From assembly GCA_951799405.1 (NCBI GenBank), contig OX637343.1, positions 3,844,001 to 3,908,000 of the forward strand: 64,000 nucleotides of DNA, written 5' to 3'. Shown here in pieces: positions 3,140-61,322 of the stretch. Numbering within the stretch: position 1 is the stretch's first letter; every line of letters begins with the position of its first letter. Source of the stretch: Agapetus fuscipes (lineage: Eukaryota; Arthropoda; Insecta; Trichoptera; Glossosomatidae). The position numbers were made by a program, and so were the translations under genes. The notes under the pieces are model-generated. The model saw only the letters and a list, made by a program, of their open reading frames with translations. It did no database searches and was not told the origin of the DNA.

Positions 3140-3264
3140 TACCTACAATCCTGTAAAAATGTCTTACATTCGCCCATAGATATAGTAACTCTGTGCATTT
3201 GCCCGAGTTTTTTTGTACACATGGAAATGCATCTGTGAAGTTCTTTGTTCTCTTACTTAGTAAT

Positions 3265-3580
3265 TGGATCGGTCCGCAGTCTAGTGGTTAACACTTCTGA
3301 CTCGTAAATGGAAGGTTGTGGGTTCGAATCCTGGCGGAGCACAAAAAAAAAACATTTATATTTTCAAATACGCTCTTCGCTGGGTGATAAATTCATATTC
3401 CTCTACTAGAGACCGGTCACTAAAGGTCCATCCAGCCTTACAGAAACTTGGTCTTGCTTGAGAATTGGCGCTTTCTACACCGACGACCAAGCTCGCATAG
3501 GGCTCTTGAGGTGTGATTCACGCAAAAATAGCGCTCACCAAATAAATCATCCAAAGTTATTATTATTATTTAACGACCAA
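3265..3580 (+). repeat. SINE-B copy (left arm of inverted pair)
   Basis: Complete SINE-B from CGGTCCGTAGTCTAGTGG (A box) and GGTTCGAATCC (B box) to the AAATAAATCA tail and a TTATTATTATT run. It is in inverted orientation relative to the copy at 3745-4046. Confidence 0.9.
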
Positions 3581-3596: not shown

Positions 3597-3738
3597 TGGT
3601 ATACTTTGCCAATTTCCCCCCTGTGTCAGGGAAGGTCGGCAAAAGTTGTACACATTCAGCATTTGTAAGCGCGAACTACACGTGTTTATTTGTGGGCATG
3701 CATTTGAGACTCTGCAACTTAAATTATATATTTAATTA
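3597..3738 (+). repeat. R3 fragment between the SINE-B arms
   Basis: R3 from ACTTTGCCAAT to the GCAACTTAAATTATA tail, lacking both the 5' part and the middle. Confidence 0.75.
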
Positions 3739-3744
3739 AAAGAA

Positions 3745-4046
3745 AAATAATTAGGCTGATTTATTTGGTGAGCGCTGTTTTTGTGTGCATCACACTTCAA
3801 GAGCCCTCTGCGAGCTTGGTCGTCGCTGTAGAAAGCGCCAATTCTCAAGCAAGACCCAGTTGTTGTAAGGCTGGATGGACCTTTTGATGACCGGTCTTTG
3901 GTAAAGGTTTATAAATTTTTCATCCCAGCGAAGAGCAAATTTGAAAATATAAATGGTATATTTCCTGTGCTCCGCCGGGTTTCGAACCCACGACCTTCCA
4001 GTTACGAGTGCGAAGTGTTACCACCTGGACTACGGACCGGTCATTA
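3745..4046 (-). repeat. SINE-B copy (right arm of inverted pair)
   Basis: Full SINE-B in reverse, from TTAGGCTGATTTATTTGGTG to GGACTACGGACCGGTC. Confidence 0.9.
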
Positions 4047-7267: not shown

Positions 7268-7830
7268 TAATCTAATCTAAGTTGCAAAGATATGTTACAT
7301 TGGAGATTCACATTACATGCATTCCCAAAATCAGACACGTACAAGTTCGCGCTTGCACATGCCTCATGTGAACCTACAACATAAAAACCAAATCTCAAAT
7401 GGACATACACCCTGCAAGTCTTGCCCTCCTTCCCTGAAACAGGGGTGGTATTGGCAAAACCATTTTTACAGCATGGGTGGTCAGCCGCATACCAGCCTAT
7501 AAGTCAAGAAACATACATGACAAATTACATTTTAAAATCAATAAATAATAATATCTATGAACATCAAAACTAAAACAGAAAACAAATTAAAATTCCAATT
7601 TAATAACCCCTAGTCGCCAACATTACAGATCAACCGCCATTTATTTCTGTCCTTACATACTTCTTTCATTTCTCCAGAGTCATTACCTTTTTCATACAGG
7701 CTCTTCTTTTATTATGATTCTGGGTATTCCATTCATTCCCAATTTCGGATATTTGCTCCATCCATACCTTTCTTGGTCTTCTTCTACCACGACATCTATA
7801 TTTTCTTCTTTCAGTCTTTCCTCATTCATT
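7268..7830 (-). mobile_element. 5'-truncated LINE-A with R3 3' end
   Basis: R3 occupies 7268-7512 (TTAATCTAATCTAAG tail). An AT-rich stretch follows, then reverse-strand LINE-A coding sequence ending NKWRLICNVGD-like at ~7620 and extending up to ~7830. The preserved order ORF end, AT-rich UTR, R3 shows R3 is this LINE's 3' end. Confidence 0.85.
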
Positions 7831-7865
7831 CATTGGTGCTTTGATGTAAAAAATAAAATGATAAT

Positions 7866-8157
7866 ATTAGGATGATTTATTTGGTGAGCACTGTTTTTGT
7901 GTGCATCACACCTCAAGAGCCCTCTGCGAGCTTGGTCGTCGCTGTAGAAAGCGCCAATTCTCAAGCAAGACCCAGTTGTTGTAAGGTTTGATGGACCTTT
8001 CAGTGACCGGTCTTTGGTAAAGGCTTATGAATTTTTCAACTCAGCGAAGAGCACATTCGAAATATAAATGGTATATTTTGTGTGCTCCGCCGGGATCCGA
8101 ATCCACAACCTTCCATTTACGAGTCCGAAGTGTTGCCACTGGACTACGGACCGGTCC
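7866..8157 (-). repeat. SINE-B body of a 5S-headed copy
   Basis: Full SINE-B in reverse with its 3' tail at the low end. Its 5' end abuts 5S rRNA-like sequence at 8158-8279 through CTTGGACCGGTCC. Confidence 0.9.
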
Positions 8158-8279
8158 AAGATGCCAACGACACGCGGTGTACCTGAACGGTAACCCATCC
8201 AAGTACTATCCGCGCCCAATGTTGCGTAACTTCGGTGATCTATGGGAACCGGTGCTTTCAACATGGTAACGTCGTTGAC
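8158..8279 (-). ncRNA. 5S rRNA-derived head of a SINE
   Basis: Read on the minus strand, 8279-8163 follows a 5S rRNA almost end to end: GTCAACGAC, CCATGTTGAAAGCACCGG, GATCACCGAAGTTACGCAAC, GTACTTGGATGGGTTACCG and a terminal GTGTCGTTGGC. At ~117 nt it is close to the usual ~120. It runs directly into SINE-B, so it is probably a SINE promoter head and not a stand-alone 5S gene. A shorter 3' piece has the same junction at 44223-44292. Some substitutions are visible, consistent with an old retrocopy. Confidence 0.85.
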
Positions 8280-8625
8280 TAAAATGTACTTTCATTCTTT
8301 TGTATTTCTTGAAATGTGATTTGCTTAGTTCTGTATACAGACGAGCCAACTGTTTAATATGAAATACAGTCGTGGGTAGCCCGGCCTCGGCCTGCATTAG
8401 TTTTCAGTTTTCAGTAATTTGCTGGAGTCACGCAGCCGACCCACCATCACCGACTTACAGACCTTCGACCTGTGTTTGTGTATAATGTATCATATACTGC
8501 ACAAGGACTGTACCGGGGAGGGATGTCCCTGCTGGGCTTCTGACAGTGGTGCCGAATCTAAGGAGTCAGATACCTACAGCTGCCATGACTGATAAGTGAC
8601 TGAAGGCTTAACCCGCAAGCCCTGA
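8280..8625. other. unassigned spacer
   Basis: Moderately GC-rich, with no recognised gene or repeat. Confidence 0.35.
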
Positions 8626-8645: not shown

Positions 8646-8820
8646 CAGGGCTGGAAGTCTCATCACCACGGTAATTCTTACCTACCGAATATCGGTAATA
8701 TTTGTATTAAGACTAATCAGCTGTTCACTTGCGGCCATCTTGGATTGACAGGTCTTCATACAAATATTACCGATATTCGGTAGGTAGGATCTACCGTTGG
8801 TGATGAGACTTCCACCCCAG
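8646..8820. mobile_element. MITE-P palindrome
   Basis: CAGGGCTGGAAGTCTCATCA on the left and its complement (with changes) on the right. Inner arms TACCTACCGAATATCGGTAA pair with their complement around a GGCCATCTTGGATTGACAG loop. A CAGGG terminus suggests hAT-like, but no 8 bp duplication was found. Confidence 0.8.
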
Positions 8821-13055: not shown

Positions 13056-13410
13056 GAGACCGGTCATCACAAGGTTCATCCAGCCTTACAACAACTGGGT
13101 CTTGCTTGAGAATTGTCGCTTTTTAGCGACGACCAAGCTCGTTAAAAGTCCGGTCGATAGCTCAATTGGTAGAATGCTTGCATTCCACGCCGAAAGCAAG
13201 GGTGCGATCAGAAGGTGTACTCATTACTCAGCCTTCACAATAAATGAAAACCAGCCCCCCCGGGAGTTAGGAAAGCCTCACTTCCATGGAAAGTGGTTGG
13301 TGTGAGGCCGGACCCCTTATCCGTAAAAATAAACAGGTCCCGAATCGCCACATGCGACCCCTTCAGGGATAACGCAGGCAAGAAGTTACACTACGTGTGT
13401 AGCTTAGTTG
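13056..13410 (+). repeat. composite SINE: SINE-B core joined to SINE-A (second copy)
   Basis: Same order and junction as 275-690 (GCGACGACCAAG, short A-rich linker, GTCCGGTCGATAGCTCAATT). The SINE-A part has a small deletion after the B box. Confidence 0.8.
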
Positions 13411-19149: not shown

Positions 19150-20212
19150 ATTAGTACAGATACGAATACTGTACTGTACTATACTGTATCCTGCCGCCGT
19201 TCCACTAGGGGTGGCCGGTACCTCCGCAGATGCGCCTCCACTTTTTTCTGTCCTTACAAACCACTTTCATTTCCTCAATATTCATCACCTTTTTCATACA
19301 TACTCTTCTCTTATTCTCACTCTGCAGGTTCCATTCTTTCGCAATCTCACCTATTTGGTCTAACCATTCTTTCCTCGGCCTTCCCCTTCCGCGCTTTCCT
19401 CTGACATTTCCTTTATACACTTTCTTCGTTAGTCGTTCATCATCCATTCTTTCGAGATGTCCGAACCATCTCATCGTACTTTTTTGTACTCTCATTCTCA
19501 TATTCTCTTTTATACCACACTCGTTCATCACCCAATCATTACGTACTCTATCATTCAGTGTCTTTCCAGCCATTGCTCTCAAGTAAGCCATTTCAACCGT
19601 ACATACTTTACTCAGTTCACATTCATTAACTGTCCACGCCTCACTTCCATACATCAATGTCGGAACCAATATGCCATTGTGGACCGCCAGTCTCATATTC
19701 TTCGTAAATTTCCTATTTCTTGCAATTCTTCCAATCGTTCCCATTACACTTCTTCCTCTACTAGCGCGCTTTTCCAATTCTTTCGTCAATTTCCCATTCG
19801 ACTCAAACTTGCTTCCCAGATAATCAAATTCTTTCACGACCTCCACTCTTGTTTCATTCAGTCTTATCTCAATTTCCTCGCATTCCTCAGTCCTGTCAAA
19901 CACTAATACTTTCGTCTTACTAGCATTCACTTTTAAACCGTTCTTACTAAAAACATCATTCATTTTGGTGAGTATCATCTGGAGCTCCTCCGCTGTATCA
20001 GCCAACACTACGGCATCGTCAGCATAGAGAAGAACTCCAACTTTCGTCTCACCCACTTTCACACCATAATGAGAAATTTCTGCTTCTTTCATACAATTGT
20101 CCATGATTATGTTAAATAACCACGGACTCATTACATACCCCTGTCGTACTCCCTTGTAAACATCAAACCATTCGCTACATTTACCATCCACTCTTACATA
20201 ATTTTCTTAAAT
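19150..20212 (-). pseudogene. LINE-A reverse transcriptase, 5'-truncated
   Basis: Longest LINE piece in the window: an uninterrupted minus-strand frame of over 330 codons (first in-frame ATG at 20191, but the frame is open to ~20210). In order: GVRQGYVMSPWLFNIIMD (RT motif), LLYADDAVVLAD (catalytic YADD), KTKVLVF and EFDYLGS (thumb-side motifs), YGSEAWTVNE, RWFGHLERMDDERLTKKVY, GKRGRGRPRKEWLDQIGE and CKDRKKWRRICGGTGHP at the end. The endonuclease and the N-terminal half of RT are absent, so it cannot be autonomous, yet the remaining frame is intact, suggesting recent insertion. A short TACAG-type tail follows at 19163-19190. Clade tentatively RTE-like. Confidence 0.88.
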
Positions 20213-24310: not shown

Positions 24311-24332
24311 GACTTCAGGGAAAGAACAAGGA

Positions 24333-24630
24333 TTTTGGACCGGTCCCAAGTCCAGTGGTAACACTTCGGACTCGTAAATGGAAGGTTGTGGGTTCGAATT
24401 CCGGCGGAGCACAAAAAATATACCACTTATATTTTCAAATTTGCTCTTCGCTGGGTTGAAAAATTCAAACCTTTACCAAAGACCGGTCATCAAAAAGCCC
24501 ATCCAGCCTTACAGCAACTGGGTGTTGCTTGAGAATTGGCGCTTTCTACACCGACGGCCAGGCTCGCAGAGGGTTCTTGAGGTGTGATTCACAAAACAGC
24601 GCTCACCAAATAAATCAGCCTTTTTTTTTT
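24333..24630 (+). repeat. SINE-B copy
   Basis: Full SINE-B. It begins TTTTGGACCGGTCC, so it keeps the last bases of the 5S junction seen at 8150-8165. Confidence 0.88.
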
Positions 24631-24906: not shown

Positions 24907-25395
24907 TAGGGATGGAAGTCTCATATTTTTTTAAAAAAAAATGCAACTAAGCTACACATATAGTGTAACTTCTTGCCGCGTTATCTCAGCATGTGGCGAG
25001 TTGAACCTATTTATTTTTACAGGTAAGGGGGCCGGCCTTACGCCAACCACTTCAGTTGAAGTGGAGGTTTCCCAGCTCCCGAGAGTGCTGGTACTTATTT
25101 CTTGTGAAGGCTGAGTAAACCTTGCCGGTAATTTATTTTGGGGTTTGAAATAAACACCGAAACGGGAAATCATTTCTGACACCCTCGGTGGGATTCGAAC
25201 CCGAGCTTTCGGCATGGAATGCAAGCACTCTACCACCTGAGCTATCGACCTCATCACAGCGGTAATTCGTACCTACTGAATATCGGTAATATTTGTATTA
25301 AGACTAATCAGCTGTTCACTTGCGGCCATCTTGAATTGACGGGTCTTCATATAAATATTACCGATATTCGGTAGGTAAGAATTACCGTGGTGATG
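24907..25395. mobile_element. MITE-P interrupted by SINE-A
   Basis: Left end AGGGATGGAAGTCTCAT (to 24924); the rest resumes at 25250 with CTCATCACAGCGGTAATTCG and continues to GTGGTGATGA at 25395. Confidence 0.8.
24925..25249 (-). repeat. SINE-A inserted in MITE-P
   Basis: Full reverse SINE-A between a CTCAT direct repeat (24920-24924 and 25250-25254). Confidence 0.9.
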
Positions 25396-25734: not shown

Positions 25735-26125
25735 CGTTTCCCGGAGAGGGTGGTCTACCGTGTTTGTCTGATGGTATATAAAGCCATCAATGGATTGGCT
25801 CCACCTTATCTGACTGACATGATTTCGCCTGTTGAGATGGGTGTGAGGAGGCAGACACTCAGATCTGCGGGCGATGTTGCAATCAATTTGGTTCAGCCGC
25901 ACCGTCAGATCCGTACAAATTTTGAAGACCGTGCTTTCTGTGTTGCGGGTCCGGTGGAGTGGAACTGACTGCCACCCGGAGTGAAGAACTCGAAATCTAT
26001 GGGTATATTTCGCGGAGCTCTCAAGACGCACCTTTTCAAAGTCTTATCCGTGATCGGAGAGGGCCCTTGAGGTGTGACACACACAAAAACGGCGCTCTCT
26101 TATCATGTGCAATTAAAAATAAATA
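25735..26125 (+). pseudogene. CR1/L2-like LINE C-terminus and 3' UTR
   Basis: Frame reads VYKAINGLAPPYLTDMI, LRSAGDVAINLVQPHRQIRT, AFCVAGPVEWN, stop, LPPGVKNSKSMGIFRGALKT, HLFKVL. The AF.VAGP..WN.LP and F...LKTHLF pattern is the standard C-terminus of CR1/L2-group LINEs. The stop replaces an arginine (CGA to TGA). The 3' UTR has GAGGGCCCTTGAGGTGTGAC, ACAAAAACGGCGCTC and AAATAAATAAGCCTGAT, closely matching the SINE-B 3' tail. Endonuclease and RT core are missing. Confidence 0.85.
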
Positions 26126-35647: not shown

Positions 35648-38600
35648 CGCACCTTTAATAATAAACCGTAACAACTCAAAAATCATGATTGTTGGGAAAT
35701 CGCGTTTAAAGTTTTGCAAGTTTGGCGCCGATTACGTTTTAACGAAATTTATGAAATTTGAGCATTGTGATGTAATGTAAATGTATTAATTGTATTGTCA
35801 ATAAAATATTCTTTTAAATGGCATATAAAAAAAGTTAATATTGTTTATAGTTTTTAAAATTTTATGGTTTAAAAAAGACATTAGCGACTTGTATCTCTTT
35901 ATGATTAAAAATGCAAGTAAATACTTAAAATGGTATGGGATATAAAACCTATTATTACAGTTTATTATTTTAAAAAAGCTGTGAAATATTTGACATTCAG
36001 AAATAATGCAGTTTATTAGTAAAATCAAATGAATTTTTTTTTTACTTTAAGTTATAATGCAGTTTATGATTAAAAAATAATAAATCATGACCAATTAGTT
36101 TCGTAGTATGTTGGTAAAAAAAAAAAAAAAATATAACAAGTTAATTTTATTCAAATTAAAATACAAATTACAATCTACTGAAAATAATCAAAAGGAATTT
36201 ATCAATAATAATAATTTTAGAGAAATAACCTCATCGTTAGCAAGGTTTGCACAAAAACTAAAAAGTTCTTAAATAACTATGGGATGAGGTGTCATACAAT
36301 TAAAAAATATATAATTAATTGAGTATAGAATTGTAAAAAGATGAGTAATACTCTGGAATTAACCCTTCGGTAATAAGCTCCTTTAAATCCTTCTGTTTAT
36401 TGGCGCTCAGTTGTTGTTTCTCAGTATATGCTTTTGAAAGCACATTATCTGACAGGGGTTTAATTTTTTTTCTCTTATTTCTCACGTTCACTTCTTTATA
36501 GTCTTCATCCTCGTACGATGTTTTATAACAGAAAGTGAACGGATCTTTTTTATTCATCTTCAGATGTTTAATGTCATTCCAGTGAAATTAGCATAGGAAC
36601 AGCACAGGTCACATTGGTCTTTTTTCGTCTGGTGAAAATGTAAATTAAATTCTTCCGTAAAAATTTTGTAGTAGGTAAAGTAGTTGCCAACTTCTTTACT
36701 ACTTAGAGTTTGCAACCCTGTAAAGTCTTTGTAGAGATCTTTAATAGTCTTATCTCCACATATATACTCCCTTGTGGTTTGAGCTCTAATATAGTGTGAT
36801 TCTAGTCTAGGAATAGATTCGATGTGCTTTTTTATGTCGGCTACTAATTCAGAATTCAATACTTTATTGTGACCATGTTTTCCGCGTTTGTCTTCCGACA
36901 AGTCGCCCATTTCATCTGTTTTTGTCACCACTGTGTGAATCATTCTGTTGGTGATGTCCAAGGTGCTTTTGAAAAATTGTTTGCATACTCTGGTTTTGTT
37001 TTTATCCAGAGTCAAGTAGAAAGCTTTATTAGCACGTCTGGGAGTTTTAGCATTGGTGTATTTGTATTTGGGTTTTACATCAACCATGCAACTCCTTATG
37101 AATGCTCTTTGCTTATCTAAATTCCCCAATTTCCAAAAATGATTAAATATTTCGTATCTTCCTTGGGTATTGATTTTTTCTGAACATTTCAATCTGTACT
37201 TGTCGGTACATGGAGTCTTGAGGCAACGAGCGGCCTTAACAGTATGTTTGCTAGTTTTGGACATAGACACATAAGCTCGTCCTTCGTTTCGCATCCTTTT
37301 TGTTCTATTTTGTTTCCATTTCGCAGGATTTCTTAACCGTTTACGACCTCTGTTTTGTATGTCCTGGTTTGATATATCGTTATCAGAGCTTGAGGAATCC
37401 AAGTTTGATGGAAATAGAAAATTTGTTTTTCTTTGTTCAAGTGTTAATAAATTTGTCTTCAAGGCTGAATGTAGGATCGTCCATATCATCGTCTATGTCA
37501 CTCTCATCAGTGAATATAGGTGAAGTTGTGATTGGGACATTCATTGCACAAGGTCTCCGTGTTCGTTTGCTACTCTCAGCTGTTGAAGTCTAAAAAGAAA
37601 CTATTATTAATTAAATGTTCATTTTATAGTTAAAGAAAGATTTTTTTAAATTATTTTTAAAACATAAAGTAATTACATCAGATTTGCCATTGTTTTGCAT
37701 TGTGTTTTTTTCCGTTGCATGTTCTTCTAATTCAGGAGCCGTGGGTGCTATTGAAGAAGCCAAGTCAATTTGTAGTTTGCTGCTCTCTCGAGTGTGTCCG
37801 TTAGTATGTCCTGTAGATGTTAAGCTATCAGATGAGAAAGACGAGCTTGATGAACTCGAAGAAGAAGATATTCGTCTTGATTTGGTTATTTTTTCTTCAA
37901 TTTCTTTAGTATTGTCCACATCATTTTCATACGAAAAACCATCACTGTCATAGTCTGGTACAAGATTTGTTTTTAATCCAGTGACTTGTAGTGATTGGCT
38001 TACCAAATTGACAGTTTCAATTGAACTTAGTAGTTGAGGATCCTGAAATTTTATTGAAGTAAGTAATCATGGAACACTATTTTTTGTTATTATATTTTAG
38101 TGAGATAATGTTAAAACAACTTACACGATCTCTTGCTCCTAGCTCCAATTCACGCCACTTTTGAGGGGAATCAGACAGTGATTTTAATTTAGCTTTTTCC
38201 TTCAGTTTCTGAAAAATTAAAACAAAGTTAGACAGTTAAGTAATGACTTTCACTAAAATATTTGCATTAGATAAGAGCTTACTTCAGAATCATCACGATA
38301 AGTTTCATTTCCGACCATATTCCAACGTGGGTTTATATTTTCATTGTATTTGAAGACCTCTTCGCGTGGCTAAAACAATGATGTATATTTTATTGAATAG
38401 GGATTATGGTGGTCATATTGTCCGACTGATAGCTACTATGTAGAAAGTTATTTATGGAATAACACTGTATAATACTAACCTTATTGCTCTCACAGTCACC
38501 AGCATCCTCCACGTCTCCACGCGTAAACACGTCGTCCTCCCGAGACATTTCGGATGGTTGGACAAAGGCCAAAATTTTTTGACTCCTCCATAGCCTCTTC

Positions 38601-43928: not shown

Positions 43929-44221
43929 TATTAGGATGATTTATTTGGTGAGCGCTGTTTTTGTGTGTATCACACCTCAAGAGCCCTCTGCGAGCTTGTT
44001 TGTCGCTGTAGAAAGCGCCAATTCTCAAGCAAGACCCAGTTGTTGTAAGGTTGGATGGACCTTTCAGTGACCGGTCTTTGGTAAAGGTTTATGAATTTTT
44101 CAACTCAGCGAAGAGCACATTCGAAATATAAATGGTATATTTTTGTGCTCCGCCGGGATCCGAATCCACAACCTTCCATTTACGAGTCCGAAGTGTTGCC
44201 ACTACGGACTGCGGACCGGTC
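43929..44221 (-). repeat. SINE-B body of a 5S-headed copy
   Basis: Full reverse SINE-B. Its 5' end joins 5S-like sequence at 44223, exactly as at 8158. Confidence 0.9.
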
Positions 44222-44222
44222 C

Positions 44223-44292
44223 AAGATGCCAACGACACGCGGTGTACCTGAGCGGTCACCCATCCAAGTACTGTCCGCGCCCAATGTTGCTT
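44223..44292 (-). ncRNA. 5S rRNA-derived SINE head, 3' part
   Basis: Minus strand: GCAACATTGGGCGCGGACAG, TACTTGGATGGGTGACCGC and CGCGTGTCGTTGGCATCTTG, the 3' half of 5S rRNA including the internal control region's downstream part. It is truncated at ~44292. Confidence 0.82.
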
Positions 44293-44617
44293 GTTGATAT
44301 TGGTTAGCTAAACTGACTGCACCGATATTGATCTCGCCTGAGATTGTTGGTGCACGCACACCGTTTTCTAAATGAACACAAGCAAATTGGTGACTCGTGT
44401 TCTTCCTTGTGATTATATGTGGCCATGCAACCATATTCCCGTTGTATACCAGTACCTACTCCCTAGAAGTTTCCTCCTCACGATGCACTGTTTGGTCGAT
44501 ATTTAAAAAAAAGCTTTCATAAATATTAGTTGGACTTGGATTTGCAGGCCGCGCGTTGGCCACATGCGCATGGACTATTTTGACGTCTCTTAAGAACAAT
44601 ATCAGATGCGCAGAATG
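44293..44617. other. unassigned spacer
   Basis: Nothing recognised. Confidence 0.35.
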
Positions 44618-45469: not shown

Positions 45470-45477
45470 AAAAAAAA

Positions 45478-45773
45478 AAATTAGGCTGATTTATTTGGTG
45501 AGCGCTGTTTTTGTGTGTATCACACCTCAGGAGCCCTCTGCGAGCTTGGTCGTCGATGTAGAAAGCGCCAATTCTCAAGCAAGACCCAGTTGTTGTAAGG
45601 CTGGATGGACCTTTTGATGACCGGTCTTTGGTAAAGGTTTATGAAGTTTTCAACCTAGCGAAGAGCAAATTTGAAAATATAAATGGTATATTTTCTGTGC
45701 TCCGCCGGGATTCGAACCCACGACCTTCCAGTTACGAGTCCGAAGTGTTACCACCTGGACTACGGACCGGTCA
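45478..45773 (-). repeat. SINE-B nested in R3 within piggyBac copy 1
   Basis: Full reverse SINE-B, TTAGGCTGATTTATTTGGTG to GGACTACGGACCGGTC. R3 sequence continues after it. Confidence 0.88.
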
Positions 45774-51713: not shown

Positions 51714-51721
51714 AAAAAAAA

Positions 51722-52014
51722 TTAGGCTGATTTATTTGGTGAGAGCTGTTTTTGTGTGTATCACACCTCAAGAGCCCTCTGAGAGCTTGGTCGTCGATGT
51801 AGAAAGCGCCAATTCTCAAGCAAGACCCAGTTGTTGTAAGGTTGGATGGACCTTTTGATGACCGGTCTTTGGTAAAGGTTTATGAAGTTTTCAACCTAGC
51901 GAAGAGCAAATTTGAAAATATAAATGGTATATTTTCTGTGCTCCGCCGGGATTCGAACCCACGACCTTCCAGTTACGAGTCCGAAGTGTTACCACCTGGA
52001 CTACGGACCGGTCA
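51722..52014 (-). repeat. SINE-B nested in piggyBac copy 2
   Basis: Full reverse SINE-B, nearly identical to 45478-45773. Confidence 0.88.
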
Positions 52015-58885: not shown

Positions 58886-59334
58886 ATATAAAAATGTTTA
58901 AAAATATATTTTTAAAGACTTCATTTCCAGTCAATATTATAAAACCCTAGAGAGAACCTAAAAGATGAAAAATAGTAGATGCAAGATTCTGCTGCAAACG
59001 CAATGTTGGCTCGACCGAAGTCCTTTATGTGTAAAATGTGATATGAAATCCGAAGTCGTTGTGTACCTACATAGCTACCCTGAAGCTTCTTTATACTATA
59101 AACATGATATTTATCAAGAGAAAATGTAATATTGAGATGGCGTCTTAAATTGCAAGCTCATGAATTGTAAAGGTTTTTTACCTCGAAATGTAGAGAGAGA
59201 TTTGCTGTAAACCCGGTCCGGTTCTCCTTCATCCCGATGTGGACATGTCGCCTTTTTGCTCTCTACCCCAAGTACCAACCTTGCCTTTATTCGTTAAACT
59301 CAACGCTAAATTATGGAATTCAACAGTCATAATA
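58886..59334. other. unassigned spacer
   Basis: Nothing recognised. Confidence 0.35.
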
Positions 59335-59770
59335 AGAGGAGAGCTTGTATTAAGAAGGTTATGCCTCTGGATGAAATGAAAAAAATATGTAAGGATAGAA
59401 AGAAATGGCGGTTGATCCGTAATGTTGGCGGCTAGGACTAGGGGATTTTGAATTAGAATTTTGTATTCTGTGTATTTGTTTTGATGTTAATACATATTAT
59501 TATTTGTAAAAAATGTTTTTTTTTGTGTATGATCCTTGACTTCTAGGTTGGTATGTGGCTGACCACTCATGCTGTAAAAAATGGTTCACTGTGCCAATGT
59601 CACCCCTGTTTCAGGGAAGGTCGGCAAAAGAGTTGCAAAGTTTATGTTCATTGGAGATTGGGTTTTTATATTGTATGTCCACAGGTGGCATGTGTAAGCG
59701 CGAACTTATACGAGTTTGCGTATGGGAACGCATGTAATATGAATCTTAAATGTAATATATCTTTGAATTT
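59335..59770 (+). mobile_element. 5'-truncated LINE-A with R3 3' end
   Basis: MPLDEMKKICKDRKKWRLIR, NVGG, stop near 59435; AT-rich spacer; R3 59532-59770. Confidence 0.87.
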
Positions 59771-60420: not shown

Positions 60421-60560
60421 CATGTAGATATAGATAGATAAGACAAAATTTGTACAGCGCCTTTTATGACAGTGTGTCACTACAAAGGCGCTTGTCCGTA
60501 TGATTGGACGAAGAGGTGAGTCTTGAGACCTCTTTTTAATTGGTCTCTCCATATCCAGTA
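60421..60560 (-). pseudogene. CR1/L2-like LINE C-terminus (third type)
   Basis: Minus frame WIWRDQLKRGLKTHLFVQSY, GQAPL, stop, then AAAGGCGCTGTACAAATTTT and a TATC tail. Only ~26 codons remain. Confidence 0.65.
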
Positions 60561-60561
60561 A

Positions 60562-60868
60562 AAAAAAAAAAAAATAGGCTGATTTATTTGGTGAGCGCTG
60601 TTTTTGTGTGTTCACACCTCAAGAGCCCTCCGCGAGCTTGGTCGTCGCTGTAGAAAGCCCCAATTCTCAAGCAAGACCCAGTTGTTGTAAGGCTGGATGT
60701 ACCTTTTGATGACCGGTCTTTGGTAAAGGTTTATGAATTTTTCAACCCAGCGAAGAGCAAATTTGAAAATATAAATGGTATATATTTTTTGTGCTCCGCC
60801 GGGATTCGAACCCACGACCTTCCAGTTACGATTCCGAAGTGTTACCCCCTGGACTACGGACCTGTCAA
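60562..60868 (-). repeat. SINE-B copy, full length
   Basis: AAATAGGCTGATTTATTTGG to GGACTACGGACCTGTC. Confidence 0.9.
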
Positions 60869-61322
60869 AACTGGTCATTTCCCTCAGTGTACCGGTTTTT
60901 ACAGAATTTTACTTCACAAGGGTGGGACTTACTTTACTCTTCGGGGTCTCTTCAATCCAGGCAATACCCATTATCTCAAATCTGGGACATACTCCCAAAT
61001 ATCATCCCTCAGCATCCCTCAACATATTTTTTTTTGTGCACAAGTTTCTCTAATTATAGTGCACCCTCTTAGCCATCAACGCGCTTGTAGGAAATCTCTA
61101 GGTATTGTTTTTAAATCTATTTAGATTGCGATGGAAGTTGTCTATATCGCACTCATTCAAGAGTTTTGTACTGCCAAGTTACTCGTATAGGATGCTGTGC
61201 GACGACATGCGTACGAATTTTCAGTACATGAAATAAGTTATGCCCTCGCCCACGACTGTAGTCGTCTTGCACATACACCCTATAGCTCTCCAACAGGGTG
61301 GGACTGTCATTATTATATTCAT
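60869..61322. other. unassigned spacer
   Basis: Nothing recognised. Confidence 0.35.

Follow-up and report, generated by a model that had tools for sequence, protein, structure and literature searches.

The minus strand of a 64,000-nucleotide stretch of Agapetus fuscipes DNA (hereafter, the window) carries a 5S rRNA sequence that runs into a tRNA-like SINE (hereafter, SINE-B), which in turn ends in LINE-like sequence. The locus raises the question of whether these parts amplify together as one mobile family, and how a 5S rRNA came to stand in front of a SINE that has a head of its own. We hold with good confidence that this is a composite SINE family, in which a complete 5S sequence was fused end to end onto an already existing tRNA-like SINE-B that ends in L2/CR1-like LINE 3′ sequence.

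Layout of the composite element

The element (copy A) occupies positions 8279-7866 on the minus strand and consists of a 5S head, the tRNA-like SINE-B and a LINE-like tail. The head (8162-8279, minus strand) aligned with positions 1-120 of the RF00001 model and is complete, with two bases missing in loop C. A cmscan search of the whole window gave it 85.3 bits against a gathering score of 38 (E = 9.4e-17), and this match at 8279-8162 was the only one of six with E up to 1 that reached the gathering score. A preliminary description of this DNA had reported a 5S rRNA leading into SINE-B on the minus strand, as we confirm here, and had proposed folding as a check on the head. The 5S strand of copy A folded at −53.4 kcal/mol with a closed terminal helix (z = −5.5), and none of 200 shuffles folded as well. 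From the full-model match together with the closed terminal helix, we conclude that copy A starts at 5S base 1.

The internal 5S promoter was placed by position arithmetic on the Rfam alignment. Box A would be expected at 8218-8232 (which we take to be positions 50-64 in Xenopus numbering), and we presume the IE to lie at 8215-8210 and box C at 8202-8185, all on the minus strand and with predicted functions. Copy A thus has the 5S-derived 5′ end with predicted boxes A, IE and C that characterizes SINE3 elements, whereas copy B, described below, is without the start of the head. The general features of a SINE, i.e., a short, dispersed element with a Pol III-derived head, are seen in the 18 SINE-B pieces of the window and in the high-scoring 5S head of copy A.

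Reading of the sequence at 8148-8161 (minus strand) revealed how the two parts meet. The 5S sequence of copy A ends at 8162, the bases TC follow at 8161-8160, and SINE-B begins at 8159 with TTGGACCGGTCC. In copy B the 5S sequence ends at 44227, TC follows, and SINE-B begins at 44224; the letters across the junction are identical to those of copy A, which bears out the earlier report of a second copy at 43929-44292 with the same junction. The text TTGGACCGGTCC also occurs at 24335-24346, and it recurs at 3264 with a single mismatch, in both cases in SINE-B copies that have no 5S head. We therefore read it as SINE-B's own 5′ end, common to headless copies, and since the headless copies indicate in this way where SINE-B begins, copies A and B represent an end-to-end fusion. 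The copy at 24332-24621 (plus strand, found by blastn) had been thought to retain a remnant of the junction at 24333. We rejected this candidate, because TTGGACCGGTCC belongs to the start of SINE-B and the 130 bases upstream showed no 5S likeness, scoring no better than shuffles (193 of 300 equal or better).

The tRNA-like head of SINE-B in copy A spans 8082-8159 (minus strand), as delimited from a weak alignment of a sister copy. That sister copy (52010-51938) aligned with positions 1-71 of RF00005, but its 15.8 bits (E = 1.4) did not reach the gathering score of 29. Copies A and B had no RF00005 match up to E = 10, and ARAGORN found no tRNA gene. The label "tRNA-like" comes from this one weak alignment and from the box A and box B text of SINE-B. 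The region GGATTCGGATCCC at 8092-8104 (minus strand), which we take to be box B from its consensus, contains two changes that are found in copies A and B only, i.e., G to A at 8102 and A to G at 8097. At these positions, G and A are retained in every one of the 11 other aligned copies in which the region is present.

At the 3′ end, the tail of copy A (7886-7929, minus strand) is identical at 38 of 44 bases to a LINE 3′ region at 26054-26097 (plus strand), and the tail of copy B at 40 of 44. The alignment of the copy A tail scored 58, compared with at most 24 among 1000 shuffles, none of which was as good, and a second, shorter terminal block of copy A also aligned with the LINE fragment. Upstream of the matching stretch lies a C-terminal LINE coding fragment (25747-25965, plus strand) whose translation we take to be L2/CR1-like from a motif that it contains. 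With that assumption about the clade, the earlier assignment of the SINE-B 3′ end to a CR1/L2-like LINE stands. The 44-base match and the terminal block are what is expected of a SINE that has its 3′ end in common with a LINE, and this LINE may be the mobilising partner of SINE-B. A comparison of the LINE fragment with viral contigs gave one weak 19-residue match and nothing usable.

Several other repeats and reading frames were observed in the window. Copy A adjoins a repeat copy at 7366-7865 (minus strand), which recurs at 31278-30816, at 59313-59683 and elsewhere, and overlaps LINE-like reading frames. A reverse transcriptase ORF (RVT_1; 19205-20206, minus strand) was read as an RTE-like LINE, with 48% identity to a Plutella protein; its database relatives include entries under Klebsiella pneumoniae and Desulfobulbaceae, possibly contaminants. 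A further ORF (36560-37492, minus strand) had 62% identity to an uncharacterised protein of the butterfly Aphantopus (Maniola) hyperantus, with beetle proteins ranking lower, and had no Pfam match at E = 0.001; it is possibly transposon-derived. The top named protein relatives of the two ORFs are lepidopteran, which says little about lineage given that each ORF is, or could be, of transposon origin. Long hairpins at 2177-2291, 8670-8795 and 25262-25385 gave Rfam miRNA-family matches, which we rejected because they fell below the gathering scores and look like hairpin repeats; they are probably miniature inverted-repeat transposons.

Copies with and without the 5S head

SINE-B behaves as an ordinary multi-copy SINE in the window. 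A blastn search for it returned 21 rows, from which 18 pieces were examined; the rows set aside were a 75% piece (33753-33649), the match to the LINE (26054-26097) and one of 22 bases (55102). Fifteen of the 18 pieces were aligned (those at 13057, 274 and 34344 were left out). The 5′ end of SINE-B was reached by 13 copies, i.e., A, B and 11 others. We searched for a 5S head in the 130 bases upstream of each of the 11 others and found none beyond chance. The best of these upstream regions, that of the copy at 3264-3567 (plus strand; start TTGGATCGGTCC), was matched in score by 18 of 300 shuffles and falls short of significance once the 11 tests are allowed for, whereas copy B, used as the positive control, scored 113 against at most 23 in 300 shuffles. 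Besides the copies at 24332 and 3264, those without a 5S head by blastn and the upstream test include 3734-4042, 60558-60869 and, also by alignment, 51714-52013 (copy D), all on the minus strand.

Copy D has a near-duplicate at 45473-45772 (copy C, minus strand, likewise headless); the two are 98.5% identical and have a 5′ flank in common, so they are probably one insertion within a duplicated or repeated segment. A second type of composite was also observed at 274-430 and 13057-13209 (plus strand), where the body of SINE-B breaks off at CCAAGYTCG and gives way to another tRNA-like SINE (beginning AGTCCGGTCGATAGCTCA). The junction is identical at both places, and eight other starts of this second SINE were seen by eye without a SINE-B part.

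Copy B consists of a 5′-truncated 5S head (44227-44292, minus strand) and a SINE-B part (43929-44224, minus strand). By our own reading, the head reaches only to about 44292, or about position 55 of the 5S model. It is 95% identical to the copy A head over 63 bases (E = 3.7e-24 within the window). Its Rfam score of 24.4 bits (E = 0.0091 when 501 bases were searched) falls short of the gathering score, and the matched range extends past the head. Overall, blastn gave 94.6% identity between copies A and B over 389 bases, and the alignment gave 95.5% over 334 columns. Seven other copies were 80.5-86.8% identical to A and B in the alignment, where the rows include some unrelated upstream flank that lowers the percentages of headless copies, and 84.3-90.3% identical to A by blastn over the matched parts.

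Within SINE-B, seven columns have a state that is common to A and B and absent from the other copies aligned there (the first 23 columns and one column in the flank were left out of this list), and A and B each also carry changes of their own. The flanks of A (500 bases on each side) and B (400 bases on each side) had no match between them. By our own reading, both heads also have in common three departures at upper-case Rfam positions, where UGggAa reads CAGGUA; upper-case positions are, we assume, the strongly conserved ones. These common departures argue for one capture of the 5S sequence, although they could instead be variants of the host 5S rRNA. Copies A and B are of common descent.

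A further junction was found outside the window. A headless SINE-B copy, read in antisense and used as a protein query, had two candidates, P0082 and P0083, and both were returned. P0083 reads through SINE-B and then leaves into other residues. P0082, from a 615-base ENA contig, is an antisense translation of SINE-B that runs into antisense 5S, since beyond SINE-B it continues for its last 15 residues as EMPTTRGVPSGHPSK. The placement of these residues had a cost of 3 for copy B and of 5 for copy A; the rest of the window, scanned in overlapping 120-base steps, gave no cost below 12, and 200 shuffles gave none below 13. For the first 92 residues, the cheapest match in the window was copy A (15.6), followed by copy C (16.6) and by copies B, E and F (19.5-19.6). 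The sequence is known as protein only and may come from the same species as the window; it had no match to viral contigs.

Compared codon by codon, P0082 has a state other than that of A and B at four of the seven diagnostic positions (8041, 8054, 8063 and 8097), and the remaining three are ambiguous. This is most simply read as the 5S head having preceded the private changes of A and B, and because P0082 is without those changes at the four resolved positions, the head was probably gained once and inherited. The preliminary description took the recurrence of the junction as a sign of a transposing family, and considered that the case would fail if only two loci had it. P0082 provides a third 5S/SINE-B junction, outside the window, although it is read as protein and its frame implies a junction two bases longer than, and so not letter-identical to, that of A and B. 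Together with the different flanks of A and B and their common private changes, this third junction supports a transposing family. The exact junction, body and tail patterns had no match in viral and prokaryotic contig collections, copy A had none to phage and plasmid records, and five SINE-B-like strings were not found in the text of the open-licence literature searched.

Possible target duplications were located outside the heads, where the preliminary description had proposed to look for them. In copy A, the bases CATTTTA lie directly before 5S base 1 (8280-8286) and again after the tail (7854-7860; both minus strand), although a match this long arose in 5.8% of shuffles (chance 0.058). In copy B, ATATCA lies two bases before the head (44295-44300, minus strand), with a 3′ partner at 43923-43918, and is weak (shuffle chance 0.174). 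Duplications between the 5S part and SINE-B were named as evidence against a single unit; none of at least 5 bases was detected at that boundary (two starts tried for A, one for B). This absence carries little weight, since among the headless copies compared, only E (6 bases) and F (5 bases) had a repeat and copies C, D, G and H had none of at least 5 bases. The duplications outside the heads are thus suggestive, and agree with insertion of 5S and SINE-B as a unit.

Probable founding of the fusion and possible use of the 5S promoter

The family was probably founded in a single event of LINE-mediated copying. A LINE reverse transcriptase would copy a SINE-B RNA to its 5′ end and then jump to the 3′ end of a 5S rRNA; alternatively, it would copy a ligated 5S/SINE RNA, either of which would give 5S, TC and SINE-B in one insertion. 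As the 5S promoter boxes are internal to the 5S sequence, they could direct RNA polymerase III to start on the new copy at 5S base 1. The resulting RNAs would keep both the head and the LINE tail and could be reinserted by the LINE machinery. A transcript started from the tRNA-like promoter would presumably lose the head, yet more than one copy inherited it, so at least one round of copying began at or upstream of the 5S sequence, for which the internal 5S promoter is the natural candidate.

A different founding step, which we regard as unlikely, is that a chance insertion of SINE-B hit the 3′ terminus of a 5S gene, or of a 5S pseudogene, and that read-through transcripts from the 5S promoter founded the family. 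The outcome would be the same family, and the complete 5S from base 1 and the one common junction are accounted for equally well. Moreover, 5S genes end in T runs, which would be a plausible LINE target. Against this, a spacer of about two bases in front of a SINE-B that is present from its own 5′ end would require insertion exactly at the 5S end. There is also no duplicated 5S end of at least 5 bases after the tail of A or B, although this would be expected in the founder only.

That two SINE-B copies each acquired, or landed beside, a 5S sequence is very improbable and was rejected: 5S rRNA does recur as a partner in L1 chimeras, but there it is typically truncated and antisense (PMC13174262, in the portion bearing on such chimeras), unlike in copy A, and the same junction letters, the unusual head bases in common, the third junction outside the window and above all the seven private changes, which already largely refute it, all argue against it. 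We give as little credence to A and B being one insertion duplicated as genomic DNA without any mobile family, which the presence of just two headed copies in the window and the likeness of headless C and D to a duplicated segment might favour; it was rejected because A and B lie in flanks with no match to each other, and it is further contradicted by the different ends of their heads, their copy-specific changes and P0082 as a further copy without the A/B changes.

Promoter use after the fusion may have left a trace in box B. The two box B changes common to both window copies suggest that the 5S promoter took over; as two of seven private changes in two related copies, they are suggestive only. 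P0082 keeps the older base at 8097, the one box B change position that it resolves. An order in which the head came first and box B decayed later, resting on three copies, would fit a promoter take-over, provided that these bases affect transcription as we suppose. It is possible, though we hold this tentatively and think it rather doubtful, that the family is in the course of a stepwise promoter replacement, in which a whole 5S was added before an intact tRNA-type promoter, transcription moved to it, and box B then lost two conserved bases in the lineage of A and B. The counter-evidence to the composite family itself is that there are just two headed copies in the window and one protein outside it, and that 11 of the 13 5′-complete SINE-B copies are headless. 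Retroposed 5S promoters are also presumed to be silent or weak without upstream signals, as stated in a passage of PMC3272025 citing Kapitonov and Jurka, and likewise in one of PMC8010984.

Relation to known composite SINEs

The arrangement described here recalls AmnSINE1, an ancient family; AmnSINE1 is a vertebrate element, whereas the present composite is from an insect. The preliminary description called a layout of 5S, tRNA-like segment and LINE tail unusual, which is overstated given AmnSINE1 and the moth chimera HaSE3. AmnSINE1 belongs to the DeuSINE superfamily of amniotes and is described in the relevant passages as having a 5S-derived promoter, a tRNA-derived region, a central domain and a 3′ tail (PMC3234267, PMC8143547), and its partner is given as CR1-type in a table (PMC3747384). 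By these descriptions it is like our composite in its 5S, its tRNA part and its 3′ tail. An amplified unit in which 5S is followed by a tRNA-derived region, as in AmnSINE1, is seen in A, B and P0082, with a weak resemblance to tRNA. The tRNA part of AmnSINE1 is called a fragment in its description (PMC8143547), whereas here SINE-B is present from its own 5′ end and headless relatives lie nearby.

Among insects, a close case is HaSE3, which with HaSE1 is known from Helicoverpa armigera and relatives. HaSE3 is outlined as a tRNA-SINE body and tail preceded by a 5S 5′ region. Template switching was put forward for its origin, and its authors called it possibly the first such insect case (PMC3272025, passages on HaSE3). 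Like our composite, it is an insect 5S/tRNA-SINE chimera that has its body and LINE tail in common with a tRNA SINE. In HaSE3, as outlined there, the 5S replaces the tRNA head and an RTE LINE supplied the tail, whereas here the tRNA-like head of SINE-B follows the 5S and the tail is L2/CR1-like.

The SINE3 families, i.e., zebrafish SINE3, the moth 5S SINEs PxSE4 and PxSE5, and SINE3-1_TC, are likewise described as having a 5S Pol III head and as LINE-mobilised; unlike for our composite, the passages on these families do not speak of a full tRNA head following the 5S (PMC8010984, PMC3272025). Mammalian 5S/LINE-1 chimeras are comparable as single-event 5S fusions through the LINE machinery, and for sense L1 chimeras template switching or ligation has been proposed. 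According to the same account, these are single insertions in which the 5S is typically truncated and antisense (PMC13174262), whereas the composite has a sense 5S that is full-length in copy A and has been passed on. Dimeric SINEs such as Sbg9 of Blattella germanica are similar in that two fused SINE units were amplified in an insect, but Sbg9 consists of Sbg1 and Sbg8, and its description in PMC9191728 mentions no 5S head where it sets out these units. Among the open-licence matches listed, taken by titles and the starts of abstracts, there was no arthropod SINE with a 5S before a complete tRNA head.

This kind of arrangement exists in vertebrates and, in simpler form, in moths; the composite is a further, independent instance, and it brings an insect example to the group of SINEs in which 5S and tRNA-derived sequences are combined. 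The chimera lies within one 64-kb stretch together with SINE-B copies that have no head and a LINE fragment whose tail matches, and for this reason the birth or swap of a SINE promoter is open to direct study here, rather than by reconstruction from old copies. If the stepwise replacement is true, headless, transitional and replaced-promoter forms of SINE-B coexist. If box B decay proves general among headed copies, the family would offer a direct test of a captured type 1 promoter replacing a type 2 promoter, and this would bear on the view of retroposed 5S promoters put forward in parts of PMC3272025 and PMC8010984.
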